From Chryseobacterium sp. CY350 (GTDB lineage Bacteria > Bacteroidota > Bacteroidia > Flavobacteriales > Weeksellaceae), in NCBI RefSeq assembly GCF_027945075.1, contig NZ_CP116034.1:1488001-1552000 (forward strand): a stretch of DNA of 64,000 nt, in the 5' to 3' direction. A model generated the notes under the pieces. It made no database searches. It worked only from the letters and a program-made list of their open reading frames with translations, and had not been told where the DNA came from. The stretch's first letter is position 1. Each line of letters opens with the position of its first letter. The translations under genes and the position numbers were made by a program. This document shows, piece after piece, positions 37,771 to 63,056 of the stretch.

Positions 37771-38311
37771 ATATCCAACCTTATTTAGCACATATTCCAA
37801 AAGTCTGCCGCACATTTGATCTTGTTTGTTCCGTGTTTATGCGTTCCTGGCTTTATGAAATATTACTAGAAAATCCATCATCAATGATTCGCTAACTTCC
37901 TTTTATTCATTAAAATATGCACAGGGGGGACAAGCGTATAAATTCAGCTCTATTCAAGTTGTTTGAAAGTTTAATATTTAATCCATGCTTTTAATATAGA
38001 ATCAAAATCATTTTATAATACATCTAATTTAAAAATATTCTAGACACATTTCTACTACACAAGTTTTTAACGTACCTAATTATTTTTAATTAACATTATT
38101 TATTTCTTCATTTTTTATAATTGTAAAAAATTTACGAATACCTTTTATTACCACTAGAGAAATTATTTCAACAGTATAACTCTTAATTATCAGCTACCCA
38201 TAGCTCCACTGAAAATTTTATGACAATAATCATAATTTCAACTTAATCCTTTTTTTTAAATTCGAAGAATTTTAAAAGATTTGAACAAAACGAAGAGCTT
38301 AAATATATATC
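37771..38311. other. 540-bp regulatory gap before the ketosynthase gene
   Basis: No gene-like frame. It contains the TATGA-N6-TCATA palindrome at 38218-38235; nothing else was recognised. Confidence 0.5.
38218..38235. promoter_or_regulatory. CRP-like palindrome TTATGA-N6-TCATAA
   Basis: TTATGA-CAATAA-TCATAA, perfect in both arms, 77 bases before the ketosynthase ATG. Copies occur before several other genes in this half of the window. Confidence 0.55.
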
Positions 38312-39370
38312 ATGACAAGTAAAATTATTGGTGTGGGAAGCTATCTACCCTCTGAAATCATACCCAATTCATTTTTTCAGAATCATCATTTCCTCGATGA
38401 AAATGGCAAAGAGCTCATGCAGAATAATGCTGTTATTGCAGAAAAACTTACAGAAATAACTGGAATACACGAACGGAGATATGCCTCCGAAAATTTGGTT
38501 GCTTCAGATTTAGGATTTTTTGCAGCTCGGGAGGCGATAAAAGATGCTCAGATCGATCCTGAATCAATCGACTATATCATATTTGCTCAGAATTTCGGCG
38601 ATATTTGCTACGGCAAAATACAGTCCGACGCAGTTCCTAGTTTGGCAGCACGAGTTAAACATCAACTTAGGATTAAAAATAATTACTGTGTTGCCTACGA
38701 TGTTTTGTTCGGATGCCCTGGATGGATAGAGGGTGTTATTCAAGGTCATGCATTTATTAGAGCTGGTATAGCCAAAACCTGTCTTATTATCGGCGCAGAA
38801 ACGTTATCAAGGGTTGTTGATGCTCATGACAGAGACAGCATGATCTTTGCAGATGGTGCAGGAGCTGTTATCATTCAGGCTTCCCGCGGCGAGGCGGGCA
38901 TTCAATCTCATACCTCGGCGTCTTTTACTCTTAATGAAAAAAACTATCTTGATTTTAGAAATTCTTATAATCGAGAAGATCGGTCGGCTACAAAATTCAT
39001 GAAGATGAATGGACGAAAAATCTACGAGTTTGCTCTTTCAAAAGTACCACAGGCTATGAAAAAATGCCTTGACGACAGTGGCTTTGCAATTCACAACCTA
39101 AATAAGATATTAATCCATCAGGCTAATGAGAAGATGGATGAGGAAATTATCAAGCGTTTTTACAAATTATATGATATACCCGTACCGGATGATATCATGC
39201 CAATGATCATAAGTAAGACTGGAAATAGCAGTGTAGCAACCATTCCTACTCTGCTCTCAATGATTTTAAATAACGAATTACCCAATCATCAATTAAGAGA
39301 AAATGATATTGTGTTATTTGCATCAGTAGGAGCAGGAATGAATATTAATGCTTTTGTTTATAAATTTTAG
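38312..39370 (+). CDS. KAS III (FabH)-like beta-ketoacyl synthase
   Basis: 352 residues, a thiolase-fold condensing enzyme. The Cys-His-Asn triad is complete: Cys135 in VLFGCPGW, His269 in ILIHQANEKM, Asn305 in KTGNSSVATIP. FabH-type enzymes start acyl chains by condensing acyl-CoA with malonyl-ACP; paralogues outside the fatty-acid operon often serve special lipids or secondary metabolites. The insert DENGKELMQNNAVIAEKLTE at the front is typical of these FabH-like paralogues. The gene is alone, without acpP or other fatty-acid genes, and is preceded by a CRP-like site. Its place among stress genes suggests membrane-lipid adaptation (inference). Confidence 0.85.
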   Translation: MTSKIIGVGSYLPSEIIPNSFFQNHHFLDENGKELMQNNAVIAEKLTEITGIHERRYASENLVASDLGFFAAREAIKDAQIDPESIDYIIFAQNFGDICYGKIQSDAVPSLAARVKHQLRIKNNYCVAYDVLFGCPGWIEGVIQGHAFIRAGIAKTCLIIGAETLSRVVDAHDRDSMIFADGAGAVIIQASRGEAGIQSHTSASFTLNEKNYLDFRNSYNREDRSATKFMKMNGRKIYEFALSKVPQAMKKCLDDSGFAIHNLNKILIHQANEKMDEEIIKRFYKLYDIPVPDDIMPMIISKTGNSSVATIPTLLSMILNNELPNHQLRENDIVLFASVGAGMNINAFVYKF

Positions 39371-39540
39371 TAATAAATCTGCAGATTGAAGATTAAGTAA
39401 ATTTTGTTGTTCTATCCAAAAATGATACGTTGATTATACGCAATAATGTATGTCAAAAAAAATTTCATTTGGAATTATTTTTGATTGTATCCATGAAGTG
39501 ATGTTTATTTCATATCCCACAATAAAAAAAATACTGAAAT

Positions 39541-39810
39541 ATGTTTAAAAAGACAATTAAAGAACTTTTGCTACAGGATTTGATAGAGACTAAACAGATG
39601 CTGATAGATGCATTTGACGACAAAGACGTTCCCTTTATCAAAGGTGGAGCAATTGACCAGTTTTTTACGAGTAAAGCTTTGGAATTTCAACGAAATGTCA
39701 TTTTTTACAATTCTATAAGTTCAGGATCTTTAGAGGAGAATGAAGAAAATAAATCTGAGATTTCACCACCTGTAGAAAAGATTGCGAACGATCTGACAGA
39801 TATCAAGTAA
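39541..39810 (+). CDS. small hypothetical protein
   Basis: 89 residues: helical start (MFKKTIKELLLQDLIETKQM), conserved-looking centre (DKDVPFIKGGAIDQFFTSKA), acidic end. No signal or membrane segment and no known family. It is followed after 143 bases by the 121-residue paralogue gene on the same strand, and may share its transcript. Confidence 0.5.
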   Translation: MFKKTIKELLLQDLIETKQMLIDAFDDKDVPFIKGGAIDQFFTSKALEFQRNVIFYNSISSGSLEENEENKSEISPPVEKIANDLTDIK

Positions 39811-39953
39811 AAACTCGTCTATTGATCTTATGCAGCGAGACCAAAATAAATAAAAACAGAACAGATCAAAGAAGACCTAATTTTTCAATAATTACTTTTT
39901 GTTACAGGTTAATTTGTGAAATTACTCAGTCACAATTTCAAAACAATAGATAT

Positions 39954-40319
39954 ATGACTCAGGCAGCTACATTGACATTGCTTCGTCAAATTTCAGAAGA
40001 TTACAAAGATAATCCTGAGCATATGTACGATGAAGCCGTCGCATTGTTACAATATGCAGCGGTACAGAAGAACATAGAATTTGACGGCTATTTTCGGACA
40101 AAGTGGGAAATTGAAGAGGATCATCCTATGACTTTTGGAGATGAATATTTTGAGAATGAAAACCGAAGTGAATTGTATGTTTATTTGGCTGCTGATGCGA
40201 GTAAAGAAATCTATGAATGTCTGGAATTCGCTTACAATTTAACCCATCAGCCAAACTTGTCAAAAGAACGATTACATCAGGAGATTAATTTGTTAAGAGA
40301 AGAAGGTGTAACCTTCTGA
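39954..40319 (+). CDS. 121-residue protein of a local paralogous family
   Basis: ATG 39954 starts MTQAATLTLLRQISED; the open frame extends upstream to 39822 with unlikely composition. The body has MYDEAVALLQYAAVQKNIEF, FRTKWEIEEDHPMTFGDEYF and ELYVYLAADASKEIYECLEF. The same layout recurs in the gene at 51691-52059 (GMQLVQARAIEKNISFDKFF, EWGLEAENVMTFDSEYFDDP, MYVFLSAVQDNDIFVALEYI) and, decayed, at 33363. All-helical acidic protein, no known family. Three copies in one window suggest a stress-linked expanded family (inference). Confidence 0.65.
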   Translation: MTQAATLTLLRQISEDYKDNPEHMYDEAVALLQYAAVQKNIEFDGYFRTKWEIEEDHPMTFGDEYFENENRSELYVYLAADASKEIYECLEFAYNLTHQPNLSKERLHQEINLLREEGVTF

Positions 40320-41656: not shown

Positions 41657-41674
41657 TTATGACAATAACGATAA
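41657..41674. promoter_or_regulatory. CRP-like palindrome, one arm degenerate
   Basis: TTATGA-CAATAA-CGATAA, with the same first twelve bases as the site at 38218. It lies 84 bases before the ATG at 41758. Confidence 0.4.
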
Positions 41675-41757
41675 TCTAGTATGTTTAGCTGTACTATATT
41701 TAACATCCAGAACATTATCAGCAAGATGCTGATAATCCTACCAAATCTAAAGAAGAT

Positions 41758-45853: not shown

Positions 45854-46669
45854 TTAATCAGACATTTTAATTTTCCGTTCTGCAATAAGAAATTGTTTAG
45901 AAGGACCCAAGATATGTACTTTTATTCCTTCTACCGTAATCGGTTCGCCATCTTTGATATCTGCAAGATCAGTATAGTCGATATCGTCTCCATCAATGAT
46001 TGTTACCAGCCCGGATCCTACTACTTCCATCATCCCATTCTTAATGATCACACAAGTGTCCTCTCCCAATCCAAGACCTAAAATACCCGGATTACAAGCG
46101 ACCATTTGAATAAGCCTTCCGATCCTACCCCGTTGTGTAAAGTGAGTGTCAATAGTAACATTATTGATAAGATCCAGCCCATTGGTCAGCTCTAATGAAC
46201 CTTTGATAAGCGCTTCCGGTGGACTTCCGGTAATAATCATTGTATTCGACATTGCGGAAGCTCCGGCACTGGTCCCCGCAAGAACAAATTTAGGCTCATC
46301 ATAATACCGCTGTGTAATAAGGGTCAAAAGATCAGTACCTCCTAAAAGGCTGCTCAATTTTAACTGCTTCCCACCACTGAACAAGATCAAGTCGCACTCT
46401 TTTACTTTTTTTAAATTATCCTGATGATCTGCCTCTTTACGACCAGTGTAGTGAATAATAGATATTTTTGAAATGTTCAAGTCACTGAATACTTTGTTAT
46501 ATACTTCTGCAGCTTTTTCCGGTACATCGGTCGCAAGAGTGATCAGGCATATTTTAGGGTTTGTCTTACCGGTTTCACTTATAACTCGGCTCAAGATATC
46601 TTTTGATTCCTTCTTATCCTCTCCTCCTCCTATTGGGATCAATATTCCTTTTGGAATTACATTTTTCAT
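45854..46669 (-). CDS. cphB: cyanophycinase
   Basis: 271 residues, a serine exopeptidase of the S51 family that splits cyanophycin into beta-Asp-Arg dipeptides. The signature GTSAGASAM carries the nucleophile Ser134; PIGGGEDKK at the front and LFSGGKQLKL are also typical. Length agrees with intracellular cyanophycinases, and no signal peptide is present. It lies 28 bases after cphA and 33 before the kinase gene in one operon, pairing polymer synthesis and breakdown. Confidence 0.92.
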   Translation of the reverse strand: MKNVIPKGILIPIGGGEDKKESKDILSRVISETGKTNPKICLITLATDVPEKAAEVYNKVFSDLNISKISIIHYTGRKEADHQDNLKKVKECDLILFSGGKQLKLSSLLGGTDLLTLITQRYYDEPKFVLAGTSAGASAMSNTMIITGSPPEALIKGSLELTNGLDLINNVTIDTHFTQRGRIGRLIQMVACNPGILGLGLGEDTCVIIKNGMMEVVGSGLVTIIDGDDIDYTDLADIKDGEPITVEGIKVHILGPSKQFLIAERKIKMSD

Positions 46670-46697
46670 GATAAAAGTTTAATTAATAATTTGATGT

Positions 46698-49262
46698 TTA
46701 CAGTTTAATTTGGTAATGTGCAGCGACGTTCCTAGTGAGTCCCAACGTATGGATGGCATTATCCGCACAAATAACAACGTAGCTTCCTTTCTCCTCATTG
46801 TCAACAGCATACTGAATAGCAGTTTGCGTATCTGCGATGACTTTGTATTCCAACTCAGACTTAATATCTCGAATGCCCCGTGATAAAAGATCTACGATTG
46901 ATTCCTCGCTTCTGCCTCTGGTATCACGATCAAACCTGATGATAATCTTATCATACATTGAAGCTGCGATCTGACCAAATTCAATAATATCAGCATCCCT
47001 TCGGTCTCCCGGAACCGCGATAATCCCGAGTTTTTTTGCCGGAATATTTTTAAGATAACCAGCAAGTGCTTTTAGTCCGTGCGGATTATGAGCATAGTCA
47101 ACGATTACATTTACACCATTGATTTCAAATTCGTTGATCCGTCCGGGAGTATGTTCTTGGTCAGGAATGAAACTTCTTAATGCAGCTAATATTTGTTCCA
47201 GTTGAATCCCTGAAAAATAGGAGGCTAGAATTACAGGCAGTATATTCTCTGTCATAAAATTTGCTTTTCCTTTACGGGTAATTGGCGCATCTGCAGCATT
47301 AAACATGAAAATGTTACCTGTTCCGTTATAAAAGAAAATATCTTGATTGCTGTCTGCATAGACCGCATAACCGCCATCACTCATATGATTCTGAAGGTGA
47401 GTATTATTTTCATCATAACAAAATAAAGCCACATTACATGTCACCTTATCTTTCATCGCATATGCATAATCATCAGCAGCATTTAAAATAGCCCAGCCAT
47501 CTTTTCTTACTGCCGCCGGAACCACTGCTTTTACATTTGCAAGATCCTCCACCGTATAAATATCTTTTAAACCCAGATGATCAGCTGCAACATTGGTAAC
47601 AATAGCAATATCACACTGGTCGAATCCAAGACCTGATCTGATAATCCCGCCACGGGCACATTCCAATACTGCAAAATCGACGGTTGTATCTTGTAAAATA
47701 GTGCGCGCACTTTGCGGACCGGAGCAATCTCCTATCTGAATTTTCTCACCACCTACATAAATACCGTCAGTAGAACTAAACCCAACAGTATAACCTGCAG
47801 AAGCAGCCAGATGTGCCATCAACCGGGTGGTTGTTGTTTTACCATTGGTTCCGGTAATTGCAATGAGGGGAATACGACCATCATCTCCTGCGGGGAACAT
47901 TAAATCAACTATCGGTTCACCAACATCACGTGCTGTTCCTTTGGTTGGATACTTATGCATCCTCAGACCTGGCGCAGCATTTACTTCGATAATCGCTCCT
48001 CCATTATCGTTGATGGGCTGACGAATGTCAGAACTCATGACATCAATACCGCAGATATCAAGACCAATTACTCTGGCTACTTTTTCCGCAAGCAATATAT
48101 TGGATGGATGAATTAGGTCTGTAACATCTTCTGCTGTACCTCCTGTACTTAAGTTAGCCGTAGACCTTAAAAATATCTGCTCGCCTCTGGCAGGAATAGA
48201 ATTGAATGTAAGCCCTTTCTTTTGAAGATGTAATTCTGTAGCGTGATCCAGACTGATTTTAGTTAAAATATCCTCGTGACCATGTCCACGCAAAGGATTA
48301 AGGTTTTCTTTTTCCACAAGTTCATAAATCGTTGAAAGACCATCACCAACAATAAAAGCAGGTTGCCGTTTAGAAGCAGCAATAAATTTATTCCCAATCA
48401 CTAATAATCGATAATCTTCACCTTGAATTTCCTTTTCAACAATCACAAGTTTTGATATTTCCGCTGCAAACCGGAATCCTGCGAGAAGTTCTGCATGATC
48501 AGTAATTCCACAAGTTACGTTTCGCCCTTGATTACCATTAAAAGGTTTCGTGACCAATGGAAATCCCAGCTGTTCAATAATCAGTAAAAGTTCATTTTCA
48601 TCGTGCACCAATTTACCTTTCGGGACCGGTAAATTGGCATTTCCCAAAAACTTCTTAGTATCTTCTTTATCACACGCAATATTTACTGCAATACAAGAAG
48701 TGTTGTGAGACATTGCTGCACTAATCCTTTTTTGGTTTTTGCCGTACCCTAAGATCGTATATCCCGCAGGACCCTTATTTACAGGAATATTTCTTCTCCT
48801 GGCAGCCTCGATAATCATAGAGGTTGAAGGCCCTTCACGATATTTTAGAGAAACTGCCTCTACTTTCACCCTGGCTTGATTAATTTTCAAAGGGATGTCT
48901 TTTAGAAATGATGATTCCATAATTTCTGATGCCAGGGTGAAAGCTTCTAAACCAACTTCCTCAATTTCATATTGCAGAAGTCCGTAAAAAATTCCCGGAG
49001 AGGGTAAAACTACATCATGGTAAAATGATGATCCCTGAAGAATAGCAGCTAAATGTAAAGTATATTCGAACACACACAACTTCATGTCTTCGTAAGAAGA
49101 TTCAATTTGATAAGTGGTCTGGAAAAAATCGCTTATCAACTGCTGCTGTTTCCTTTTTATTTCCGCAATAGCCAAAGAATCATATTTAATAGCAATAAGA
49201 CGGTGATGAGTGCGTGACCACATATTGGGTCCGCGCATAATTCTTATCTCATTCGTAATCAT
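46698..49262 (-). CDS. cphA: cyanophycin synthetase
   Basis: 854 residues, the usual CphA length. The N-terminal domain begins MITNEIRIMRGPNMWS. The ATP-grasp domain is about 215-465 (NLPVPKGKLVHDENELLLII, PLVTKPFNGNQGRNVT), and the Mur-ligase-like domain follows with P-loop ITGTNGKTTTTRL (about 475) and VDYAHNPHGLKAL. CphA polymerises Asp and Arg, one ATP-dependent step for each domain, into the storage polymer cyanophycin. The start at 49262 agrees with family N-termini. Its operon also holds cphB and, upstream, DUF1989 and GntA-like genes, which points to use of arginine or guanidino nitrogen. Confidence 0.95.
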   Translation of the reverse strand: MITNEIRIMRGPNMWSRTHHRLIAIKYDSLAIAEIKRKQQQLISDFFQTTYQIESSYEDMKLCVFEYTLHLAAILQGSSFYHDVVLPSPGIFYGLLQYEIEEVGLEAFTLASEIMESSFLKDIPLKINQARVKVEAVSLKYREGPSTSMIIEAARRRNIPVNKGPAGYTILGYGKNQKRISAAMSHNTSCIAVNIACDKEDTKKFLGNANLPVPKGKLVHDENELLLIIEQLGFPLVTKPFNGNQGRNVTCGITDHAELLAGFRFAAEISKLVIVEKEIQGEDYRLLVIGNKFIAASKRQPAFIVGDGLSTIYELVEKENLNPLRGHGHEDILTKISLDHATELHLQKKGLTFNSIPARGEQIFLRSTANLSTGGTAEDVTDLIHPSNILLAEKVARVIGLDICGIDVMSSDIRQPINDNGGAIIEVNAAPGLRMHKYPTKGTARDVGEPIVDLMFPAGDDGRIPLIAITGTNGKTTTTRLMAHLAASAGYTVGFSSTDGIYVGGEKIQIGDCSGPQSARTILQDTTVDFAVLECARGGIIRSGLGFDQCDIAIVTNVAADHLGLKDIYTVEDLANVKAVVPAAVRKDGWAILNAADDYAYAMKDKVTCNVALFCYDENNTHLQNHMSDGGYAVYADSNQDIFFYNGTGNIFMFNAADAPITRKGKANFMTENILPVILASYFSGIQLEQILAALRSFIPDQEHTPGRINEFEINGVNVIVDYAHNPHGLKALAGYLKNIPAKKLGIIAVPGDRRDADIIEFGQIAASMYDKIIIRFDRDTRGRSEESIVDLLSRGIRDIKSELEYKVIADTQTAIQYAVDNEEKGSYVVICADNAIHTLGLTRNVAAHYQIKL

Positions 49263-49360
49263 AGGGTGTTGTTTTTAATAAACAGAAAAAAAAGTAATCA
49301 CTAAAATATCAGCCTCAAGATCTTGACTGCATTTTCTAAGCAGAAGAGAAGTATAATAAA

Positions 49361-49945
49361 TTATTCTATCTTATATTGTATTGGTTTAAAAGACCCGCCA
49401 TTACTGTCTTCTGCAGAACACGCCGTTAAGCAAACAAGTAAATCCATCTGTGCCCTAAATCTTATGAAGTCACCAGCTGTAGAGGTTGGCGGCAAGACGG
49501 TTAGCTTCCCTTGATTATCAAACTGCACATTCATAAATATATTAAAGGCCGTTGGGATGTCATCTTGTTTGATCCCTTTCGGTTCTAAATTTTTAGATAG
49601 ATTTTCCAAACAGCTTGGGTGATAGCCCTCATAATCATACATGATTTCGAAAGTTTCTTTACTGCATGGTGCTAAAAGAAAATCATTTCTACCATTTGTA
49701 TCTTCCAATATTTCCATCATCTTTCTGGATCTGTTGCTCCAAAGAAAGTTGCCGGTCGTAATAAGAATTGATTCTTCAAAATCAAGAGTTTTCCCCGACG
49801 AGAGCTTTTCGCCGAAATCTTTACTGTTGAAGAGAACCATGTCACTCACCTGCATTCCCTGCGGATCAATGACCGTTAAAATTTCATTTTTTTTTAAATA
49901 AAATGCTTTACCGCTCTGTCTTTCAATCGTTTTAATGTTACTCAT
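49361..49945 (-). CDS. DUF1989 (urea carboxylase-associated) protein
   Basis: 194 residues. It matches DUF1989: AFYLKKNEILTVIDPQGMQV, DEESILITTGNFLW-like core LDFEESILITTGNFLWSNRS, HPSCLENLSKNL, and the end FNIFMNVQFDNQGKLTVLPP, then DFIRFRAQMDLLVCLTACS. In other bacteria two DUF1989 proteins form carboxyguanidine deiminase, which works with guanidine/urea carboxylase. Only one such gene is present here, without a carboxylase, so its reaction is open. It starts 3 bases after the GntA-like gene and precedes cphA by 98 bases. Confidence 0.85.
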   Translation of the reverse strand: MSNIKTIERQSGKAFYLKKNEILTVIDPQGMQVSDMVLFNSKDFGEKLSSGKTLDFEESILITTGNFLWSNRSRKMMEILEDTNGRNDFLLAPCSKETFEIMYDYEGYHPSCLENLSKNLEPKGIKQDDIPTAFNIFMNVQFDNQGKLTVLPPTSTAGDFIRFRAQMDLLVCLTACSAEDSNGGSFKPIQYKIE

Positions 49946-49948
49946 TAA

Positions 49949-51690: not shown

Positions 51691-52059
51691 TTAAAATCTT
51701 ATTCCTATGTCCTTAAATCGAAAAATTTCCCTGCGTAGAACATTTTCCGTGAGAACTTCCCCATGGACCGCAAGCCAAATATATTCCAGAGCCACGAAGA
51801 TATCATTATCCTGAACTGCGGAAAGAAACACATACATATCACGTCGATCAGGATCATCAAAGTATTCCGAGTCAAACGTCATCACATTTTCAGCTTCCAA
51901 ACCCCATTCGTCTCTAAAAAACTTATCGAAACTAATATTCTTTTCGATTGCTCTAGCCTGTACAAGTTGCATCCCGTCATTATAAAACTTCACCATATCA
52001 GTCGGCTCATCCATTAAATAATCAACTAATATTTCAATAGTGTAATCTGTATTTTTCAT
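51691..52059 (-). CDS. 122-residue protein, paralogue of the gene at 39954
   Basis: Acidic, all-helical protein: DEPTDMVKFYNDGMQLVQAR, EKNISFDKFFRDEWGLEAEN, VMTFDSEYFDDPDRRDMYVF, then VLRREIFRFKDIGIRF. The spacing of the Phe/Trp/Glu motifs equals that of the 39954 protein, with clear sequence divergence, so the duplication is old. No known family. It is monocistronic; a degenerate CRP-like site lies about 200 bases upstream. Confidence 0.65.
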   Translation of the reverse strand: MKNTDYTIEILVDYLMDEPTDMVKFYNDGMQLVQARAIEKNISFDKFFRDEWGLEAENVMTFDSEYFDDPDRRDMYVFLSAVQDNDIFVALEYIWLAVHGEVLTENVLRREIFRFKDIGIRF

Positions 52060-52876
52060 AAATTAATATAATGTTAAATTGTGTAGTCCAACAACATTGC
52101 TAATCCCAAGGTTCTTTACATCGATTAAAACCACGATCACTCACACACCGCTTTATTATATAATCCATATAATTTCTATAAAACTAGTCTATGGAACCTT
52201 GAGCACATCTACTGAATGTTACCGATGATGAATATACCAATACAAAATGACTATGTTTTATGACTATAGTCGCATGCGATCGCGTTAATTTCATAGTTAT
52301 CAATCATGAATAATTTCTTTTAATTGTACTGACAAGGAATCAAAGTCATCTCAACAATATAAAAAATGTCAATACTGCTAATACATATACATTAAGTCAA
52401 GTATCTTTATTCAACGCTATCGTCAAAATCCCCCAATAAATAACGGTAGATCCTGAGAGATTCATCGTTAGTTTTAAATTTTTATGATCGCATCCTTAAA
52501 ATATTAGCGGTTAATTCTAATATTTTAGTTTCTATTTTGACCATGACACAATGCTGATAAGTTAAGGAAAAGTCTATCATAAATTATCTTCACCTTACCC
52601 GAAAGTAAATTTCCCTTAAAGAATAGCAATTCAAAATTATTTTCTAGATCTGATCCATCATTAAATATGATTTGGTTGTTCATGTTTCAGCACAGATGGC
52701 GTAAAGCTCCTGGCAAAAGGGCGACAACTAGTAATTCACTGGAATATAATATTTTAGATGATTCAGGTCATACTCAAATTTTTCAACAATGATTATTTTT
52801 GCACCGTCAAAATCACTATAGAATTTAGATGTTCTAATCTTGATAGGAGCTTTTGACTATAACTAAATTTATTCTT
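52060..52876. other. 800-bp gap with a degenerate CRP-like site
   Basis: No gene with a start codon. TTATGA-CTATAG-TCGCAT (52258-52275) is a weak copy of the regional palindrome. A minus-strand open stretch near 52855-52727 reads SDFDGAKIIIVEKFEYDLNH but has no start codon and may be debris. Confidence 0.35.
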
Positions 52877-54349
52877 ATGAACAAAATTTTTATTTTATTA
52901 CTAATCATGTTAGCGGTACTGCTAAAGTCACAGGTGGGAATCAATACTATCCTACCTCATCAGTCTTCAGCATTGGATGTTCAGTCAGGGGTTGCTCCAA
53001 AAGGTTTTTTAGCTCCGCGAATGAGTTCTACTGAGAGAATTGCAATCTCAGCACCGGCGGAAAGCTTGCTTGTATTTGATACAACAGAAAAAGCATTTTT
53101 CTTCTACAACACAGCAAGCAGTTCATGGATCAAGCTTGCAACTGATATCGGTAGCACACGGAATAACTACAGACTGATTAAATCCGCATCCGATCTTTCG
53201 GCCGAACTTACAGCTGGAGGAGGTAACTCTTATCTTCTTACATCCAATACCTACTACGAGATCAACGGAACGGTAACACTTTCTAACTCTATTAATATTA
53301 ACAATGCATACGTCTCAGGTTTGGATGCGAATGAGGACATTCTATCGTTCCCGGGAGGAGTCGTTTTTAGAGGTAATACGGGAGGTAGTATAAGAAATTT
53401 AACAATCACCGGAGGAAAAGCTTTTGAAATTACAGGTCCAGGTGTATCTTCTAGTTCATCCCTTTTAATCCAAAACACAATTGTTCAGAACACGACCATT
53501 GGGGTTGGATCTATTACTGGTTTAGGACTTTATTTTGGAAATATTGTAAATTTTATCAATAATGCAAACGGTATAATATATTCCAATATCGGAAATTTGC
53601 TTCTGAATAGTCAGGCATGGCTTGATTCTAACAATGGCACATTTGAAACGTTTTCAGGAACTTTTGGATCTATCCAGAAAGCTAGTGGTTTTAGTACAGT
53701 GAATAATGCAGATGTAGCACTAGATGTAAGTAATGCCAATCTGGTTGTTGGGACAGGTGTTATTGAGGGAACTGTTTTTTCTGGAACGTCAACAACTCAG
53801 CCTGGTTACATAAAGGGCTACACTAGCGGATCATATCCTGGTTTTAACTTCAGCAATGCCTGGACGATTGACGCTCCTGGTATACCGCGTGAAAGTGACA
53901 GTGAGGCTACAGGAGATATAAATTTAAGTGCAGAAGTAGGTGTCGGACAATCTACAACTTTCGTAGGAACTGGTACACCCAGTCGAATGAAAGTAAATGG
54001 CACAACAACTTCCAACAACCTTTTTCGATTCTCTACCGATAATTTAAATAACCGAATTACTTACAGAGGTAACAAAACAAGATATTTTCAGGTTGCTGCT
54101 TCTCTTTCTTATCAGGGTAATAATGATCTGACCGTCATTGTCTACATTGCACGAAACGGTACCGTTATCAACCAAACTAAAGTCTACGGCAGAGGAACAA
54201 CTGGTTTTCTGGTAACTTCAGGGATTATAGCACTCCCCGTAGTTGGAACAATACAATTAAAAAAAGATGAATACATTGAAATATGGGCAGAACGTTATGC
54301 CGGTTCCGGGGATATGCAGACAGTATCACTTAACTTAACAGCAAGATAA
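52877..54349 (+). CDS. exported beta-rich surface or fibre-like protein
   Basis: 490 residues from ATG 52877; the frame opens at a TTG 24 bases earlier. A signal peptide (MNKIFILLLIMLAVLLKS) is followed by a short conserved flavobacterial motif (QVGINTILPHQSSALDVQSG, then KGFLAPRMSSTER and LLVFDTTEKAFFFYN), common at the start of exported adhesin-like proteins. The middle is Gly/Ser/Asn-rich and beta-helix-like (GGSIRNLTITGGKAFEITG). The C-terminal about 130 residues (FRFSTDNLNNRITYRGNKTR and IELWAERYAG-type YIEIWAERYAG) resemble a C1q/TNF-like trimeric head of phage or adhesin fibres. Surface exposure and trimerisation are inferred. Confidence 0.75.
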   Translation: MNKIFILLLIMLAVLLKSQVGINTILPHQSSALDVQSGVAPKGFLAPRMSSTERIAISAPAESLLVFDTTEKAFFFYNTASSSWIKLATDIGSTRNNYRLIKSASDLSAELTAGGGNSYLLTSNTYYEINGTVTLSNSININNAYVSGLDANEDILSFPGGVVFRGNTGGSIRNLTITGGKAFEITGPGVSSSSSLLIQNTIVQNTTIGVGSITGLGLYFGNIVNFINNANGIIYSNIGNLLLNSQAWLDSNNGTFETFSGTFGSIQKASGFSTVNNADVALDVSNANLVVGTGVIEGTVFSGTSTTQPGYIKGYTSGSYPGFNFSNAWTIDAPGIPRESDSEATGDINLSAEVGVGQSTTFVGTGTPSRMKVNGTTTSNNLFRFSTDNLNNRITYRGNKTRYFQVAASLSYQGNNDLTVIVYIARNGTVINQTKVYGRGTTGFLVTSGIIALPVVGTIQLKKDEYIEIWAERYAGSGDMQTVSLNLTAR

Positions 54350-54584: not shown

Positions 54585-54954
54585 ATTATTTGATGTTGAA
54601 AAACAGAACCATAAACTGTATTTATTACTTATGTACTTCTCTTTAATTAGTGATTAAACATAACCACATATAAAAATCACCATTACAGATATCTAGCCCA
54701 AGTCTTAAGTGTAAATCCTTAAAATTAATCTTTATTGCTACCCCTAACTATTTATGGCAAAAGCAACAAATAAGCTGGCAATAGTTGTTCAGTTAGAGAT
54801 TCCAAAGCTGTCAGTCACAGCATACATTATTTTTTTAAATAAGAGTATGATTTAAGTCGTAAACCTATTAATTATCAGACAATTAAACACCTTAATCATC
54901 AACGAAATGGCACGATCTTAGTTCCTTCTAGATTACACCTAAAAAATTAAAGTT
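54585..54954. other. upstream region of Mn-catalase
   Basis: No gene. It carries the degenerate CRP-like site at 54845-54862; nothing else was recognised. Confidence 0.4.
54845..54862. promoter_or_regulatory. degenerate CRP-like site before Mn-catalase
   Basis: GTATGA-TTTAAG-TCGTAA keeps TATGA and TC-TA at the right spacing. It is 93 bases before the ATG, the same distance as for the sites at 38218, 41657 and 63039. Confidence 0.35.
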
Positions 54955-55908
54955 ATGTTTTACCATTCACAAAATTTGATTAATCCAATTGTACCTGATG
55001 AACCGGATCCGTCTGCTGCCAATGCATTGCAAGAAGGACTTGGAGGTCAATTCGGTGAAATGCGCACAATGATGCAGTATCTTTTTCAAAGCTTCAATTT
55101 CCGTGGAAAGGCTACCCCTTACATGGATTTGATTCAAGGCGTAGGAATTGAAGAAATTTCACATGTAGAGTTGATTACTAAAACTATTTCCCAGCTGTTA
55201 GACGGGTCACCAAGATATCAAGGTGACAAATATGAAGCTCCAAGTGCAGGCGGAGGAATTGCGCTTGAGATGGCGAAAGAACAACAAAACCCACATCATT
55301 ACATTGTTGGGGCCCAAGCAGCACTCCCTGTTGATGCTGCAGGAAATCCATGGAGTGGAAGCTACGTACATAATCACGGAAATCTTGTTCTAGATTTGAT
55401 GGACAATTTAGTTGTGGAGGCTACCGGAAGAATCCAGAAATGTCGTATCTATCAGATGAGCAGTAATAAAACATTGCGAGCTACTGTAGCATTTTTGATA
55501 GTTCGTGATGAAGCTCACCAAGCTGCTTTCGCAAAAGCATTGGAAACATTGGGAGTTGATTGGGGAAAGGTTTTGCCAGTACCAAAATTTGATTCTTCTC
55601 AATTTCCGGAAGTTAAAAGATTACTGGATTTAGGGCTGCATCGGGAGCAGTATACCTTCCGTATGGATGGCTCGTTGATGGAACAAATTTTCAGTGGCCC
55701 ATCCCCTTTTAATGATGGTACAGAGTTGACCACTCTCAAAGAGCCGAGAGAATCTTATCCAATACCCGAGGCACCGGAAAGGCCTGAAGAATTTGCGCCA
55801 GGTTTAGATGAAGAAATGCAGGCCTTGGCAGATGCATTTAATGAATTTAAGGAATCTGGAGGAAAAGTCAAAAAGAACGTTGCGATAAAAGGTAAAAAGA
55901 AAAAATAA
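54955..55908 (+). CDS. manganese catalase
   Basis: 317 residues of the non-haem dimanganese catalase family, which breaks down hydrogen peroxide in the cytoplasm. Ferritin-like helices carry the metal ligands: the front helix with GLGGQFGEMRTMMQYLFQS, GIEEISHVELITKTI, and YVHNHGNLVLDLMDN plus RDEAHQAAFAKALETLG. The C-terminus has a Pro/Glu-rich tail (PEAPERPEEFAPGL) and a basic end (KGKKKK). It is monocistronic or followed by a start-less small frame; a CRP-like site lies upstream. Confidence 0.93.
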   Translation: MFYHSQNLINPIVPDEPDPSAANALQEGLGGQFGEMRTMMQYLFQSFNFRGKATPYMDLIQGVGIEEISHVELITKTISQLLDGSPRYQGDKYEAPSAGGGIALEMAKEQQNPHHYIVGAQAALPVDAAGNPWSGSYVHNHGNLVLDLMDNLVVEATGRIQKCRIYQMSSNKTLRATVAFLIVRDEAHQAAFAKALETLGVDWGKVLPVPKFDSSQFPEVKRLLDLGLHREQYTFRMDGSLMEQIFSGPSPFNDGTELTTLKEPRESYPIPEAPERPEEFAPGLDEEMQALADAFNEFKESGGKVKKNVAIKGKKKK

Positions 55909-56472: not shown

Positions 56473-58734
56473 TTATTGATTTGAAGCTGTTTTTATTTCA
56501 TTGGTTCTTATATCTGTTCCTAATCTTTGGAGATAGGAAATTAAAGCGACAATCTCTTTTTTCTCCAGGTCACTTGAGGGTCTTGCTGAATACGCAGCTT
56601 TCAGATCAGGAGCTTCGCTGAAAATATCACGCACAATTGCTGCGGCCTGATGATCTGCCCACTGATTTGCGGAATCAATCTGACTTTTGGTGTAAGGAAC
56701 GTCAAATGTCTTTTGTAAGAGCTTAATTTTATCCACCATGAGAGAACGGTCTAGATTATTGGAGATCAACCATGGATATCTAGGCATAATGGAACCGGCA
56801 GAGGTACTTCGTGGATTGTACATATGCTTATAATGCCATGAACTTGGATTACGTCCGCCTTCTCGATGCAAATCCGGTCCAGTTCTTTTAGACCCCCACA
56901 GAAATGGACGGTCATAGATAAATTCACCTGCTTTTGAATATTGACCATTTTTTCCATTGAATCTTATAATTTCATCTCTGAACGGTCGAACCATTTGAGT
57001 ATGGCAGGCATTGCATCCTTCCCTGATATACAAGTCCCTCCCCTCGAGCTCCAAAGGAGAATAAGGTTTCACCGCTGATATGGTGGGAACGGATTTTTCC
57101 ATTGACAACGTTGGAACGATTTCAACAATACTACCTACCGAAATAGCAAATAAAGATAAAAAGCCCAGTAATACAGGCATTCGTTCCAACCAGAGATGAG
57201 CACCTTCTCCTTCTTTACGTTTATTGCTAATATCTGCAAGCGCATGGGCTTCAGCAGGAACATTTTTTTGAAAAGATCCGGTTCTAATCGTTGCGACCAA
57301 ATTAATCACCATCAGTATGCCTCCAGAGAAATAAAATAATCCGCCGACAAATCTTAACTGAAAATAAGGTATAATAGCAGTAACGGTGTCAAGCCAGTTT
57401 TTCCATAAAAGCGTTCCATCCGGATTAAACTGTTTCCACATTAAGCCTTGTGTAAAACCTGATATATACATCGGCACAACATAAAAAATAATCCCCAAAG
57501 TACCTAGCCAAAAATGATAATTGGCAAGTCTCACTGAATAAAGTTTAGTCCGCCATAAAATCGGAATCAGATAATAAATAACACCGAAGGCCATAAAACC
57601 ATTCCATCCTAATGCACCAACATGTACGTGACCAATGACCCAATCAGTAAAGTGACCAATTTTATTGATATTTTTAGTTGCCAACAATGGCCCTTCAAAA
57701 GTAGCCATACCATAGCATGTTACTGCGACTACGAAAAATTTTAAAATAGGATTGATTCTGACCTTATCCCAAGAGCCTCTTAAAGTAAGAAGACCATTCA
57801 ACATACCACCCCACGATGGAGCGATCAACATGATTGAAAAGCCAGTTCCGACAGCTTGCGCCCAAGCAGGAATTGATGTATATTGTAAATGATGCGGACC
57901 TGCCCAGATGTAAACAAAGATCAAAGACCAGAAATGAATGATGGATAGTTTGTACGAAAAGACAGGACGATCTGCAGCCTTGGGCAGAAAATAGTACATA
58001 AGTCCAAGTACAGGAGTTGTCAGAATAAACGCTACGGCATTATGTCCGTACCACCACTGAACAACTGCATCTTTAACCCCAGCATAAGCTGAGTATGATT
58101 TCCAACCCGTAAAACTTAACGGGACTTCCAGATTATTGAAAATATGTAACATAACAAACGCAATCCAGGTTCCGGTATAAAACCAGATTGCCACGTACAA
58201 ATGTCTGACCCTTCTGATCGTAATAGTCAGGAACATATTGAGTCCGAAAACAATCCATGAAAATCCTATTAAAATATCGATCGGCCATTCGTGCTCAGCA
58301 TATTCTTTAGAAGTATTAATTCCCATAAAAAAGCTGATATATGTAGCGATAATCATTAACTGCCACGACCAAAAATGGATCCATGAAAGTACATCACTAT
58401 ACATTCTCGTTTTCAATAATCTTTGCAGGGAATAATAAACCCCTACAAAAACATTATTACATACAAACGCAAAAATGACACTTGTTGTATGGAGCATTCT
58501 TATCCGACCAAATCCAAACGCGCCCTGGGTATTCATAAGGCCCTGTATATTTTGCACGGACAGAGACTTAATTGTTGAATCATCCGTTCCAAACAAAAAT
58601 TCGGGAAGTTCCGGATAGAACAGCAAGAGCGCTGCAGTTAAGCCGAAGATGAATCCAAATAATGAAAATACAACGGTAGCATATAAAAATGCTTTAACGA
58701 TTGAGTTATCATAACTAAACTTTTGAGGTTCCAT
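56473..58734 (-). CDS. ccoNO: cbb3-type cytochrome c oxidase, fused subunits I and II
   Basis: 753 residues, the CcoN-CcoO fusion usual in Bacteroidota. The CcoN part (1 to about 490) has about 12 membrane helices and His ligands of haem b and the haem b3-CuB centre (for example MLHTTSVIFAF, WWYGHNAVAFIL, AGPHHLQYTS, WVIGHVHVGALGW). The CcoO part is a periplasmic cytochrome c with CNACH at 574-578 and the axial Met in SIMPRYPW. It is a high-affinity terminal oxidase for low oxygen. No ccoP, ccoG or ccoS genes are adjacent: only a small CcoQ-like gene, and a GlsB-like gene ahead. That suggests a second, stress-linked copy that borrows CcoP from elsewhere. Confidence 0.93.
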   Translation of the reverse strand: MEPQKFSYDNSIVKAFLYATVVFSLFGFIFGLTAALLLFYPELPEFLFGTDDSTIKSLSVQNIQGLMNTQGAFGFGRIRMLHTTSVIFAFVCNNVFVGVYYSLQRLLKTRMYSDVLSWIHFWSWQLMIIATYISFFMGINTSKEYAEHEWPIDILIGFSWIVFGLNMFLTITIRRVRHLYVAIWFYTGTWIAFVMLHIFNNLEVPLSFTGWKSYSAYAGVKDAVVQWWYGHNAVAFILTTPVLGLMYYFLPKAADRPVFSYKLSIIHFWSLIFVYIWAGPHHLQYTSIPAWAQAVGTGFSIMLIAPSWGGMLNGLLTLRGSWDKVRINPILKFFVVAVTCYGMATFEGPLLATKNINKIGHFTDWVIGHVHVGALGWNGFMAFGVIYYLIPILWRTKLYSVRLANYHFWLGTLGIIFYVVPMYISGFTQGLMWKQFNPDGTLLWKNWLDTVTAIIPYFQLRFVGGLFYFSGGILMVINLVATIRTGSFQKNVPAEAHALADISNKRKEGEGAHLWLERMPVLLGFLSLFAISVGSIVEIVPTLSMEKSVPTISAVKPYSPLELEGRDLYIREGCNACHTQMVRPFRDEIIRFNGKNGQYSKAGEFIYDRPFLWGSKRTGPDLHREGGRNPSSWHYKHMYNPRSTSAGSIMPRYPWLISNNLDRSLMVDKIKLLQKTFDVPYTKSQIDSANQWADHQAAAIVRDIFSEAPDLKAAYSARPSSDLEKKEIVALISYLQRLGTDIRTNEIKTASNQ

Positions 58735-60225: not shown

Positions 60226-60654
60226 TTATAAACAATCAAAAAGTTTCATAAACCTTTGCGCTGAATTTTCAGAATCCATTTCAGCTCTTTCATATTGTTT
60301 ATAACAGTGTCGAGCTAGTTCTTTACATAGTCCATTATACAACTGCGGATATACCTCTAGCATAGAAAAGAAATTATATTTACATAAACGAATAACGTCA
60401 CAAGCTTCAACAGCGAATGCCGTTACAGGATATGGCTTATCAAAAAACAGAAGAGCATCCCCAAAACTCTGTCCCTCACTCACAGAGGATTGATAGAGTG
60501 TACCACCCTTGCTATGACAGCACAATTTTAATTTTCCTTGTATCAATTGATGGTAATAGACCAAAATTTCGCCCTCTTGGAAAATCATATCACCGGATCT
60601 GTATTGTATCAACTCGGCTCCTGCTGAGTATAAAAATTTTTCTTCAATAATCAT
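60226..60654 (-). CDS. cyclic-nucleotide-binding domain protein lacking the DNA-binding domain
   Basis: 142 residues covering the CRP/FNR-type sensor domain: LIQYRSGDMIFQEGEILVYY, GKLKLCCHSKGGTLYQSSV, EGQSFGDALLFFDKPYPVTA, then the long dimerisation helix (LYNGLCKELARHCYKQYERA). The protein ends RFMKLFDCL, just where the helix-turn-helix of a CRP/FNR regulator (about 190-230 residues) should begin, and no HTH is found in other frames before the next gene. It could act as a dominant partner or signal-binding subunit. A CRP-like palindrome lies 165 bases upstream. Confidence 0.75.
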   Translation of the reverse strand: MIIEEKFLYSAGAELIQYRSGDMIFQEGEILVYYHQLIQGKLKLCCHSKGGTLYQSSVSEGQSFGDALLFFDKPYPVTAFAVEACDVIRLCKYNFFSMLEVYPQLYNGLCKELARHCYKQYERAEMDSENSAQRFMKLFDCL

Positions 60655-60964
60655 ATGTCCTTTTTTTTTTGAAAGATGTAGACAATGTTTACCTTGCTTA
60701 TGCCGGCAGTGCCAATCTTCTTATTTCTATAAGAGTTTCATTTTGAATATTGTATAACTATTGCATTTGGTATTTTCAAACTGCTTGAATCAAAGATAAT
60801 TTTCTTTAAATCCACATGTTATGACTTTTATCATAATGAGCAACTTCTTGACATACCAGATTCTTCATTCATGTATAGGAACTACCTGGCGTTTTAAATG
60901 ACAGAAGATTTTATTAAAATGTAGAATGATCTGTTTACCAAATTAAACATTAAGTCTCACTCAA
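60655..60964. other. 310-bp regulatory gap
   Basis: No gene. It contains the palindrome at 60819-60836 between the SDR stop and the cNMP-binding gene start. Confidence 0.4.
60819..60836. promoter_or_regulatory. CRP-like palindrome before the cNMP-binding gene
   Basis: TTATGA-CTTTTA-TCATAA with perfect 6-bp arms, 165 bases upstream of the cNMP-binding protein start. Confidence 0.5.
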
Positions 60965-61726
60965 TCATCCATTGATGATCATGCCGCCATTGGGATGTAG
61001 AACCTGGCCGGTGATTTGAGCTGAACCGTTCGAGACCAGAAAAAGAAAACAAGATGCGATTTCTTCAGTAGAGGCATTGCGTTCAAGCGGAGGTTGATGA
61101 GGATCCTCCTTTTCTTCCCCAAAGGTTTTTTCGGTCAAAGGAGTAGATACAGGGCCAGGTGACACAGCATTAACACGAATCCCTTTAGATTTTGCCTGAA
61201 GTGCCATTGATCTGGTAAAAGAAACTATGGCTCCTTTCGTAGCAGAATAGTCCAATAGTTCTTCATGACCCTGATAAGCTACTGCTGAAGTTGTATTCAC
61301 AATACTGTCACCCATCTTCAAGTGGGGATACACTGCTTTTGTCAGCAATATCATTCCAATAATATTTGAATTAAACGTACGACGCACATTTTCCTCCTTT
61401 AAGTTTTCTATACTAGTTTCCGGAAACTGAATTCCTGCATTATTGATCAATATATCAATGTTTCCCCACAAGTTGATTACTGTTTCACAAATTTCCGTAC
61501 AAAATGCGTCCTCATTAATATCTCCCGAAAACGTCATGCATTTCCTACCAAATTTTAAAATTTGTTCTTCAGTGTCTTTTGCATTTATATTATCCTCCTG
61601 GTCATTATAATTGACAATAGCAATGTGCACTCCATGCTTTGCTAATAGAAGAGCAACCTCTTTCCCAATTCCACTATCTCCTCCTGTTACGATTGCTACT
61701 TTATCTTTCAATTCCGAATATTCCAT
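60965..61726 (-). CDS. SDR-family oxidoreductase (YghA-like)
   Basis: 253 residues from ATG 61726; the frame extends to 61762 with an odd leader. Rossmann fold with cofactor motif VTGGDSGIGKEVA, NNAG in DILINNAGIQFPE, catalytic Ser in NTTSAVAYQG and Tyr-Lys in YSATK; the end HPNGGMIING is typical of stress-type SDRs. The enzymes reduce or oxidise small carbonyl compounds with NAD(P). It follows the CinA-like gene by 46 bases and is probably in one transcript with it and the gene at 62319. Confidence 0.88.
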   Translation of the reverse strand: MEYSELKDKVAIVTGGDSGIGKEVALLLAKHGVHIAIVNYNDQEDNINAKDTEEQILKFGRKCMTFSGDINEDAFCTEICETVINLWGNIDILINNAGIQFPETSIENLKEENVRRTFNSNIIGMILLTKAVYPHLKMGDSIVNTTSAVAYQGHEELLDYSATKGAIVSFTRSMALQAKSKGIRVNAVSPGPVSTPLTEKTFGEEKEDPHQPPLERNASTEEIASCFLFLVSNGSAQITGQVLHPNGGMIING

Positions 61727-61772
61727 TATCTGTTTTTTAAAAATTATATGAATTTGATACAATCAATTTTTT

Positions 61773-62261
61773 TCAGTTGTCTGACTGTATTTCAAGCTGT
61801 TTTTCAAAACTCTTCATTATTGACTCTGCATAAAAGATCTGCGCATCCTCTGCAATTTCTTTCTCACTAGTGATCTTCTCGGATACAATCACTGTATTTC
61901 GGTACACAATAACATAGTATGCAAAAGTCTTAAAATCTGATGTATCAACAGGAGTTGCATATCCTGTAACTCCGATTCCCCAATCTGTTTCAAACATTTG
62001 AGAGACTTCTAATGCCATTGTCTGTGCGATCTTTTGAGAGACACAGTCAGTTTCTTCAGCCTCTTTTTTATTTATACCCAGATGCTTCACTTTTTCCTGT
62101 AGAGTGTATGCTGTAATGCCACCCTTAAAAAATTTAGATGCTTCAGTTATTTGTGAAAGCAGGAACTGTAGATAACCGGATGTGACTCTTTCAGCGACGC
62201 TCACGGTATTCCCTTGAGCATTTAAATATCTGCCAACTGTTTCTATAATACCTTTCTCCAT
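61773..62261 (-). CDS. CinA C-terminal-type amidase
   Basis: 162 residues covering only the CinA/PncC (nicotinamide-nucleotide amidase-like) domain: TVSVAERVTSGYLQFLLSQI, FFKGGITAYTLQEKVKHLGI, then IGVTGYATPVD and TFAYYVIVYRN. The front motif AERVTSG deviates from the AESCTGG of canonical PncC, so activity is uncertain. It is between the unknown gene at 62319 and the SDR gene on the same strand. Confidence 0.75.
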   Translation of the reverse strand: MEKGIIETVGRYLNAQGNTVSVAERVTSGYLQFLLSQITEASKFFKGGITAYTLQEKVKHLGINKKEAEETDCVSQKIAQTMALEVSQMFETDWGIGVTGYATPVDTSDFKTFAYYVIVYRNTVIVSEKITSEKEIAEDAQIFYAESIMKSFEKQLEIQSDN

Positions 62262-62318
62262 CGTTTTTAAAAATATTTTCTGTATTAAAATTTTATATTT
62301 TAGACATTCAATTTCATG

Positions 62319-62945
62319 CTAAACCTTTATCATTGAATTGACAAAATCTTCCCATTGCAGTTTACTCCCACCAAATATTCCGCCTCCTGCTACGAATATA
62401 TTACGGAGCATATCCCAAAGTCTAACATTCGACGTATTTGGAGATTCATTTCTGCCATGAACGCTCAACTGGATATCACTACCTGAACGGATTAGAATAA
62501 AACTATTCGTGGCATTTTGCTCATAAAAATGCGCAATACCACCTCCTTTATTGTCTAAACAAGGGCAAGGACGCATTTGAAGATGTATGTATTCAATGTT
62601 TTCTTCATGATAATTCTCAACTTTTTCTATGACCACCCAATCATAACCATTTCCAGTCTTATTTTTGGGTGCAGGCATTTTAATTTTGACGAAAAGATTT
62701 TCAGCAGCATGAAAATGCCCACCTTTTCCATTGGAATCAACTAAGTCGAATTTCGTAGGTAATTTTCCAGCGTTAATATTCCAATGACTGATGTTAAGGA
62801 GTTGATCCGCAAGTTTTCTATACAAATCCTCTGCGATGCCTTGAGACAGGCAGGGTTTTGTTGCTGCAGCATCGCTAGACGATCCACTATCGTGTTTCGG
62901 AAGAAGATGATCTATGTTAATTAAATATTTTACGGTTTTTGACAT
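62319..62945 (-). CDS. hypothetical protein, first gene of the CinA-SDR run
   Basis: 208 residues, no recognised family: KYLINIDHLLPKHDSGSSSD, then YDWVVIEKVENYHEENIEYI and PCPCLDNKGGGIAHFYEQNA, ending WEDFVNSMIKV. No signal or membrane segment. Two regions with Gly and Cys (RPCPC) may bind a ligand or metal, which is a guess. A CRP-like palindrome lies 94 bases before its ATG, so the three-gene run may belong to the proposed regulon. Confidence 0.6.
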   Translation of the reverse strand: MSKTVKYLINIDHLLPKHDSGSSSDAAATKPCLSQGIAEDLYRKLADQLLNISHWNINAGKLPTKFDLVDSNGKGGHFHAAENLFVKIKMPAPKNKTGNGYDWVVIEKVENYHEENIEYIHLQMRPCPCLDNKGGGIAHFYEQNATNSFILIRSGSDIQLSVHGRNESPNTSNVRLWDMLRNIFVAGGGIFGGSKLQWEDFVNSMIKV

Positions 62946-63038
62946 AACTACATAATTTTAGTACTAACAATTAAGCTGACTTTTTAAGTGTTAAAAAAGT
63001 GGTTGAAGTTCAAAGCTATTACAATCGACGGCGTCATG

Positions 63039-63056
63039 CTATGACATTAATCATAA
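63039..63056. promoter_or_regulatory. CRP-like palindrome before the 62945 gene
   Basis: CTATGA-CATTAA-TCATAA, 94 bases before the start of the unknown gene. Confidence 0.5.

Follow-up and report, generated by a model that had tools for sequence, protein, structure and literature searches.

A recurrent TATGAY-N4-RTCATA palindrome as the predicted operator of a CRP/FNR-type paralogue family in Chryseobacterium sp. CY350

We have analysed a stretch of 64,000 nucleotides from the genome of Chryseobacterium sp. CY350 (contig NZ_CP116034.1, positions 1,488,001 to 1,552,000; hereafter the window), in which the palindrome TATGA-N6-TCATA recurs upstream of genes that include several of stress type. 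In its refined form, TATGAY-N4-RTCATA, the palindrome is most probably the operator of a family of CRP/FNR-type proteins, here called type i, which are predicted to bind it, to activate from a class II position and to form a self-activating stress network. The computational analysis established the sites, their spacing from a promoter box, their link to the paralogues, the co-variation of the two across genomes and the fold of the proteins.

The palindrome and its promoter position

Exact copies of TATGA-N6-TCATA start at positions 38219, 50899, 60820 and 63040 of the window (Table 1). The initial annotation had placed these four copies one to four bases lower (38218, 50895, 60819 and 63039) and had described 9-bp perfect arms for the second of them, which are actually 10 bp long. 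The copy with a weak arm that it reported at 41657 is present at 41658 (TATGACAATAACGATA), and the degenerate ones at 54845 and 52258 are found at 54846 (TATGATTTAAGTCGTA) and 52259 (TATGACTATAGTCGCA). Four of the sites (38218, 41657, 54845 and 63039) had been said to lie 77 to 94 bases before a start codon, and the measured distances were 77, 84, 93 and 94 bases. When one mismatch was allowed the window contained 12 sites (4 exact and 8 one-mismatch copies), the first at 36397, in agreement with the reported absence of copies from the first 36 kb. Shuffled windows contained 5.8 such sites on average (standard deviation 2.3), with 12 being reached in 1 of 100 shuffles, and the significance of this one-mismatch count, taken for the window by itself, is no more than moderate.

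The palindrome was accepted as real because of its count over the whole genome (4.09 Mb), the enrichment check that had been proposed with the first description of the motif: 28 exact copies were found against 6 of the reversed pattern. The bases adjoining the arms are skewed, giving the refined core TATGAY-N4-RTCATA with 21 copies against 1 reversed, and the inner four bases show no conservation across the full site set. In 21 stretches of the genome (375 kb, 79.6% of which lies within open reading frames (ORFs) of at least 100 amino acids (aa)), 40 refined sites (one mismatch allowed) were intergenic and 8 were coding; hence, the motif is not equally frequent inside genes. Eleven of these stretches were chosen for holding sites, which biases the site density and leaves the contrast between intergenic and coding DNA unbiased. 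Three clusters, at 1.398-1.413 Mb (3 copies), 1.526-1.580 Mb (11) and 3.817-3.826 Mb (4), hold 18 of the 28 exact copies, the second being the stress region of the window and its continuation, and inexact copies form another cluster at 140-152 kb.

Many copies lie at a restricted distance from a -7 promoter box. Eleven of the 21 refined sites of the genome carry an exact TANNTTTG on one flank at a gap of 21 or 22 bases, while the other 78 offsets tested around the same sites gave 2 exact boxes in all. Genome-wide, the motif combined with the box (up to two mismatches) occurred 35 times at gap 21 and 20 times at gap 22, against 3 and 1 occurrences of the reversed pattern, respectively. This combination gave 54 oriented matches in the window and 26 further stretches, where one palindrome may count once per strand, with 51 of them outside ORFs of at least 100 aa; seven background stretches of 20 kb contained none. 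In a sample of 247 genomes of the phylum, exact motif and box at gap 21-22 appeared 67 times in 28 genomes, 11 of these matches coming from CY350, and the reversed pattern was absent. A control gap of 26-27 in the same genomes yielded 0 matches and 3 of the reversed pattern. All four genomes of the genus, CY350 among them, were positive; outside the genus the matches came from 18 of 26 genomes of the order, outside the order from 4 of 31 of the class, and outside the class from 2 of 186 of the phylum.

Class II CRP sites are found at about -41.5. The box TAnnTTTG sits at -12 to -5 in the transcription start map of Flavobacterium psychrophilum (PMC9723704), which would locate the palindrome centre at -41.5 for gap 21 and at -42.5 for gap 22. 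With the box position taken from this map of another species, the predicted operator position fits a class II CRP/FNR-dependent promoter.

The type i paralogues and their link to the operator

Numerous genes for CRP/FNR-type proteins of about 198 aa are found within the clusters of sites. With one of these proteins as query, 19 matches at E≤0.001 were obtained in the CY350 genome, and the type i family was found to comprise 16 full-length members plus a truncated ORF of the window (17 genes). The two weakest matches and two genes read as CRP-like (L049:2060-2695 and L055:4773-5327) were kept as four outsiders. Of the 17 genes, 13 have a site with no more than one mismatch in the 500 bp before them (an exact one in 10 cases), and two divergent gene pairs among the 13 share one palindrome each. 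The same test was positive for 0 of the 4 outsiders, and for 0 of 21 with the reversed pattern. We have also inspected a single type i gene, which was the top-scoring one in every genome but G144, from each of 40 other genomes of the bacterial family; these belong to a set of 43 with a match below 1e-60, of which G045, G117 and G121 were left out. An exact site preceded 17 of these 40 foreign genes and a site with up to one mismatch 20, compared with 0 of 40 for the reversed pattern.

Site number and paralogue number vary together. Across 148 genomes of the bacterial family, the count of sites correlated with the count of CRP-type matches (Spearman rho 0.68), with a value of -0.03 for the reversed control. 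In the genera with most copy-number variation over many genomes, rho was 0.65 in g1 (20 genomes; 0.59 without CY350), 0.85 in g9 (20) and 0.71 in g21 (14). When every genus represented by six or more genomes was included (nine genera, 108 genomes), the genus-centred r was 0.73 and its control -0.03, and none of 10,000 within-genus permutations gave a correlation as high.

The proteins themselves are compatible with this role. Twelve members were aligned (11 of the 16 full-length proteins and the truncated ORF, with five CY350 paralogues outside the alignment); all 12 matched the cyclic-nucleotide-binding (cNMP-binding) beta-roll PF00027, and 11 matched HTH_Crp_2 at E≤1e-3, the exception being the truncated ORF. 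The family profile aligned nearly full-length with CRP and DNR structures (positions 16-196 in the match to CRP). An AlphaFold2 model of the member L016:6123-6719 had a pLDDT of 88.9 and contained the helices of the helix-turn-helix (HTH), and Foldseek ranked CRP structures first for this model (TM 0.87 to 3ryp_A).

The recognition helix GCSRETVGR of CRP aligns with GL[RCS][VIL]ET.I[RS] of type i, where, among the 11 aligned members with an HTH, E181 is kept in 11, R185 in 10 and R180 in none. Rodionov and colleagues (PMC1274295) report an association of R180 with G3, and of E181 with A6, in the half-site wTGTGA. The type i helix and the operator agree with this rule: the loss of R180 is accompanied by A in place of G at base 3, and A6 is retained. 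The full-length CRP/FNR protein with a matching recognition helix that the initial annotation had suggested looking for has its counterpart in the 16 full-length paralogues, of which the 11 that were aligned have a helix fitting the A-for-G change. Its view of the palindrome as a CRP site (TGTGA-N6-TCACA) with G changed to A gains support from the paralogue family, the helix, the co-variation and the sites upstream of the paralogues.

In CRP, cAMP is contacted by R82, S83, T127 and S128. The first pair aligns with Tyr/Pro and the second with Lys/Tyr in the type i profile; because these residues are replaced, cAMP is an unlikely ligand and signal, and type i is not CRP proper. The aligned CY350 type i proteins also have no N-terminal CxxC of the kind that carries the Fe-S cluster of the FNR oxygen sensor. 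Judged by these residues, type i proteins are members of the CRP/FNR superfamily distinct from canonical cAMP-CRP.

The truncated member, at 60226-60654 of the window, has no clear HTH remnant in the neighbouring DNA, and a protein search for its relatives (4 candidates scored) returned only itself at E≤1e-10. It could titrate or inhibit the paralogues, or it could be a decaying copy. Riemerella anatipestifer belongs to the same family as CY350. Its CrpR1a is described as a CRP without HTH in a paper whose abstract mentions no operator (PMC13277301), and the window ORF resembles it, going by that description, in lacking the HTH.

Several observations weigh against assigning the operator to the type i family. 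Three of the seven window sites noted earlier (41658, 52259 and 54846) are degenerate, and 4 of the 17 CY350 and 20 of the 40 foreign type i genes have no site of one mismatch or fewer in the 500 bp before them. Paralogue number is nearly constant in genera g11, g17, g23 and g26, where rho is weak, slightly negative or undefined, and the summed motifs of g21 (21 against 26 in the control), like those of g23, do not exceed the control. The CRP-type counts over the 148 genomes include about one FNR-like gene per genome, and some of them may be low because only 21 candidates were scored where there were more. As to the proteins, the first aligned member scores 25.1 bits for HTH_Crp_2, for which the Pfam cut-off is 27, and the paralogue L020:4994-5590 has Ser at the R185 position.

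We infer that type i proteins bind the operator, that they activate rather than repress, that they regulate one another and that their signal is probably not cAMP. Each subunit of a type i dimer would recognise a single TATGAY half-site with its helix GL[RCS][VIL]ET.I[RS]. Bound with its centre near -41.5, the dimer would stand in for the -33 element and bring sigma-A RNA polymerase to the TAnnTTTG -7 box, as in class II activation. With the same operator at most paralogue genes, a mutually and self-activating network would result, whose predicted outputs are stress islands encoding catalases, DUF892 and DUF2383 proteins, short-chain dehydrogenases (SDRs), CinA-like proteins and cyanophycin-type enzymes. 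A wider proposal, which we put forward tentatively, is that in Chryseobacterium-like bacteria a burst of CRP/FNR paralogues with one operator, to which most of them are also subject, may have produced a self-wired, multi-input general stress response. Sensor domains would differ while DNA site and promoter position stay constant, and the HTH-less paralogue is a possible inhibitor. Such a system would be a third design next to alternative sigma factors and phosphorelays, and would have arisen through the recruitment of stress islands to an older low-oxygen/nitric oxide (NO) operator of the phylum.

Type i shares with Escherichia coli CRP its full-length fold, the equivalents of E181 and R185, the half-site spacing and the class II-like position. 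It differs from it by Ile, Leu or Val in place of R180 together with A for G in the operator, by the replaced cAMP contacts and by the presence of many paralogues instead of one. The N4 between TGAY and RTCA is reminiscent of the TTGAT-N4-ATCAA-type boxes of FNR, DNR and HcpR; in addition, the FNR helix lacks R180, as that of type i does, and the best solved-structure sequence match of type i is a DNR (3dkw, E 2.3e-22). Unlike in these systems, the outer base is A and not T, the N-terminal CxxC is missing from type i and the targets are here mainly stress genes. The general stress systems PhyR-EcfG, RpoS and SigB have similar target families (catalases, DUF892/DUF2383-type proteins, SDRs), but the controllers proposed here are CRP-type activators working with a housekeeping -7 box and no alternative sigma factor. 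To our knowledge, no general stress regulator has been described for Bacteroidota, and searches of an open-access library listed no paper whose title or abstract opening describes this operator, this paralogue family or such a regulator; the motif strings gave no match in that library either. The combination of operator, promoter position and regulator family offers a testable candidate for the control of stress defence in such bacteria. It also suggests an operator code, pairing A at the second base of the half-site with the loss of R180, that could serve for the many CRP/FNR proteins not yet assigned, and it offers a natural example of numerous paralogues with a common site.

The operator elsewhere in Bacteroidota and competing regulators

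Scanning genome contigs for motif and box returned at least 118 stretches; of those listed, we take 113 to be from Bacteroidota or near relatives (Chlorobiota, Kapaibacterium, Ignavibacteria) and four to be from elsewhere (Pelagibacteraceae, Lachnospiraceae, Faecalibacillus and Methanobacteriaceae). In the stretches listed, 125 of 132 sites fall outside ORFs of at least 120 aa. Ten downstream genes examined with Pfam encoded a fused CcoN/CcoO oxidase, a radical-SAM protein that reads like HemN, NadA, two cytochromes c (one NorC-like), an MFS transporter that reads like NarK, a flavohaemoglobin, a ScdA/hemerythrin protein, a DUF983 protein (below the cut-off) and Rrf2. Four Pedobacter loci (L110, L119, L133 and L168) have in common the order type i gene, site with -7 box, small cysteine-rich gene, the last of these being DUF983-like in L133 (below the cut-off).

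Both type i and a second kind of CRP protein, type ii, adjoin sites in the 80 loci examined for CRP proteins out of the at least 118. Type ii proteins are FNR-like, of about 225-240 aa, with the helix GTATES.IR, and in Flavobacteriaceae they share 8-kb loci with ccoNO or CcoI-like genes; an N-terminal CxxC is present in those of several Flavobacteriaceae loci, and the aligned part of the CY350 type ii protein (L056:3745-4578, minus strand) has none. They occur in 145 of the 148 genomes of the bacterial family, as a single copy in all but 8. In hand-chosen sets, the G+C content of the site centres was 0.10 at respiratory genes (AT-rich), 0.41 at foreign type i genes (pyrimidine-purine) and 0.19 in CY350. 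The simplest history, we infer, would be an older low-oxygen/NO operator of the phylum that was later joined by type i paralogues and stress islands in a Chryseobacterium-like lineage. Among the loci examined, the type i proteins with the highest scores come from Chryseobacterium contigs.

It is conceivable, though unlikely, that the sites are those of the single type ii regulator instead of the type i paralogues, with the stress genes included in a low-oxygen/NO regulon. This would account for the motif and box preceding CcoNO, NadA, cytochrome c, flavohaemoglobin, ScdA/RIC, Rrf2, hemN-like and narK-like genes elsewhere, for the AT-rich centre that several window sites have in common with respiratory targets in the hand-chosen sets, and for the 117 motifs against 64 in the control in 56 genomes whose best match is weak (E 1e-20 to 1e-30) and probably of type ii. 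However, a protein that is single-copy nearly everywhere cannot produce the variation in site number, which runs from 0 to 21, and on this ground type ii was rejected as the sole regulator. Moreover, nothing closer to the site than three mismatches lies in the 500 bp upstream of the CY350 type ii ORF, whereas sites stand at type i genes in many genomes. Type ii may still share some of the sites with the type i proteins.

Far less probable is a response regulator of the NarL/LuxR type. The 7-2-7 geometry would suit such a protein, copies such as TATGACTAAAGTCATA point in this direction, several copies have a core GACTWWAGTC that resembles the DosR box, and histidine kinases are encoded within the window. 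However, over the full set of sites the inner four bases lack conservation, and the two response regulators that adjoin the CRP genes of L019 are of receiver length only (126 aa, read from the sequence). In addition, site counts follow the CRP paralogues, the regulators that the cross-genome counts covered. A DosR/NarL-type site was accordingly rejected as the main explanation, the unconserved inner bases and the copy-number co-variation favouring a CRP-type one. An origin of the palindromes as chance AT-rich words, or as leftovers of gene duplication among the stress islands, is hardly credible: the one-mismatch copies of the window exceed shuffles only moderately, and both stress genes and paralogues recur in the genome, but the genome-wide, cross-genome and spacing controls contradict this idea, the same site precedes unrelated genes in other genera, and the reversed-pattern and gap controls reject chance words.

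Genes behind the operators and their surroundings

The individual sites of the window and the associated genes are given in Table 1. The operators at 41658 and 52259 were read directly from the sequence, the former being below the cut-off of the motif and box scan. The site at 52757 was absent from the earlier list of sites.

Table 1. Operators, -7 boxes and associated genes
Feature	Position	Strand	Remarks
Exact operator TATGACAATAATCATA	38219-38234	+	77 bases before ketosynthase-III-like ORF 38312-39370
-7-like box TAAATTCG	38257-38264	+	38219 site, gap 22
Degenerate operator TATGACAATAACGATA	41658-41673	+	2 mismatches to refined core; 97-aa ORF starts at 41758
-7-like box TATATTTA	41695-41702	+	41658 site, gap 21
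Exact operator, 10-bp arms	50899-50914	-	Before the run from 50674 down to 45854
-7-like box TAGTTTTA	50869-50876	-	50899 site, gap 22
Degenerate operator TGCGACTATAGTCATA (the TATGACTATAGTCGCA site)	52259-52274	-	199 bases before 122-aa ORF 51691-52059; weak -7 box
Operator GATGATTCAGGTCATA, 1 mismatch	52757-52772	+	Before 498-aa ORF 52853-54349
Perfect -7 box TATTTTTG	52794-52801	+	52757 site, gap 21
Degenerate operator TATGATTTAAGTCGTA	54846-54861	+	93 bases before Mn-catalase ORF 54955-55908; no good -7 box at gap 21-22
Exact operator TATGATAAAAGTCATA	60820-60835	-	165 bases before CRP-type ORF 60226-60654
Perfect -7 box TATCTTTG	60791-60798	-	60820 site, gap 21
Exact operator TATGATTAATGTCATA	63040-63055	-	Before 208-aa ORF 62319-62945, then CinA-like and SDR ORFs
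Perfect -7 box TAGCTTTG	63011-63018	-	63040 site, gap 21
Truncated CRP-type family member, 142 aa	60226-60654	-	cNMP-binding domain only; ends before the HTH
Putative operon of 50899 operator	45854-50674	-	YqcI/YcgG (GntA), DUF1989, Mur-ligase/RimK ATP-grasp (cyanophycin-synthetase-like), peptidase S51 (cyanophycinase-like)
Putative operon of 63040 operator	60965-62945	-	208-aa ORF, CinA type, short-chain dehydrogenase
Cyanophycin-type genes, window copy	45854-49262		
Cyanophycin-type genes, L044 copy	L044:11998-15535		
Cyanophycin-type genes, L016 copy	L016:13210-14945		Read from the sequence

The gene runs behind the CY350 sites, with operon membership inferred from strand and spacing, encode Pfam-assigned catalase, DUF6766, SDRs, a 2Fe-2S succinate-dehydrogenase-type protein, DUF892 and DUF2383, as well as CinA-type, Mn-catalase, YqcI/YcgG, DUF1989, cyanophycin-synthetase-like and cyanophycinase-like proteins. 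No Pfam family was found for 4 of 10 proteins in one tested set and for 1 of 10 in another. Ketosynthase-III-type genes and glycosyltransferase-like genes (the latter read from the sequence) also have sites, so that the targets extend beyond classical stress genes. The regulon of stress genes that the initial annotation had put forward is supported with refinements: catalase, DUF892, DUF2383, CinA, SDR, cyanophycin and Mn-catalase genes conform to it, ketosynthase-III and glycosyltransferase types do not, and elsewhere respiratory and NO genes are found behind the operator. The FixG-type gene of L020 (Pfam) had no site in the motif and box scan, and a similar-reading gene of L044 has one.

We have also searched the 40 foreign type i stretches for relatives of 16 cluster proteins, two of which were uninformative, giving no match even in their own clusters. 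Twenty stretches held a relative of at least one of the 16. DUF892 was found in 16 of the 40 (451 kb) against 0 of 7 background stretches of CY350 (140 kb), whereas SDRs, present in 13 of the 40, were also present in 2 of the 7; relatives of GntA, CphA, DUF1989 and Mn-catalase occurred in 0 of the 40. Within CY350, relatives of the cyanophycin-synthetase-like and cyanophycinase-like proteins turn up again in further stress clusters (2 and 3 of 11 stretches, respectively).

The stress region is flanked by mobile-element genes on the left (window 1-31034), with a conjugative coupling protein and a DUF3945/DUF4099 protein, and on the right (L017:9680-17932), with a topoisomerase, a DUF3945/DUF4099 protein, HTH_17, a RadC-like protein and a tyrosine integrase beside three tRNA-Asp genes. 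A search for a duplicated tRNA-Asp end that could mark the edge of a mobile element found only the three tRNA copies. The GC content of the region (0.33-0.40 in 4-kb blocks, against a background of 0.343) was uninformative.

Two similar fused cbb3 oxidase (CcoNO-like) genes lie in stress clusters, at 56473-58734 of the window and at L020:7698-9962. Finally, L049:2060-2695 (minus strand; genome position 200060), a different CRP-like gene as read from the sequence, is preceded by a canonical TGTGACTAATATCACA site with a -7 box at gap 22, which suggests that a CRP-like code may be in use next to the TATGA one.

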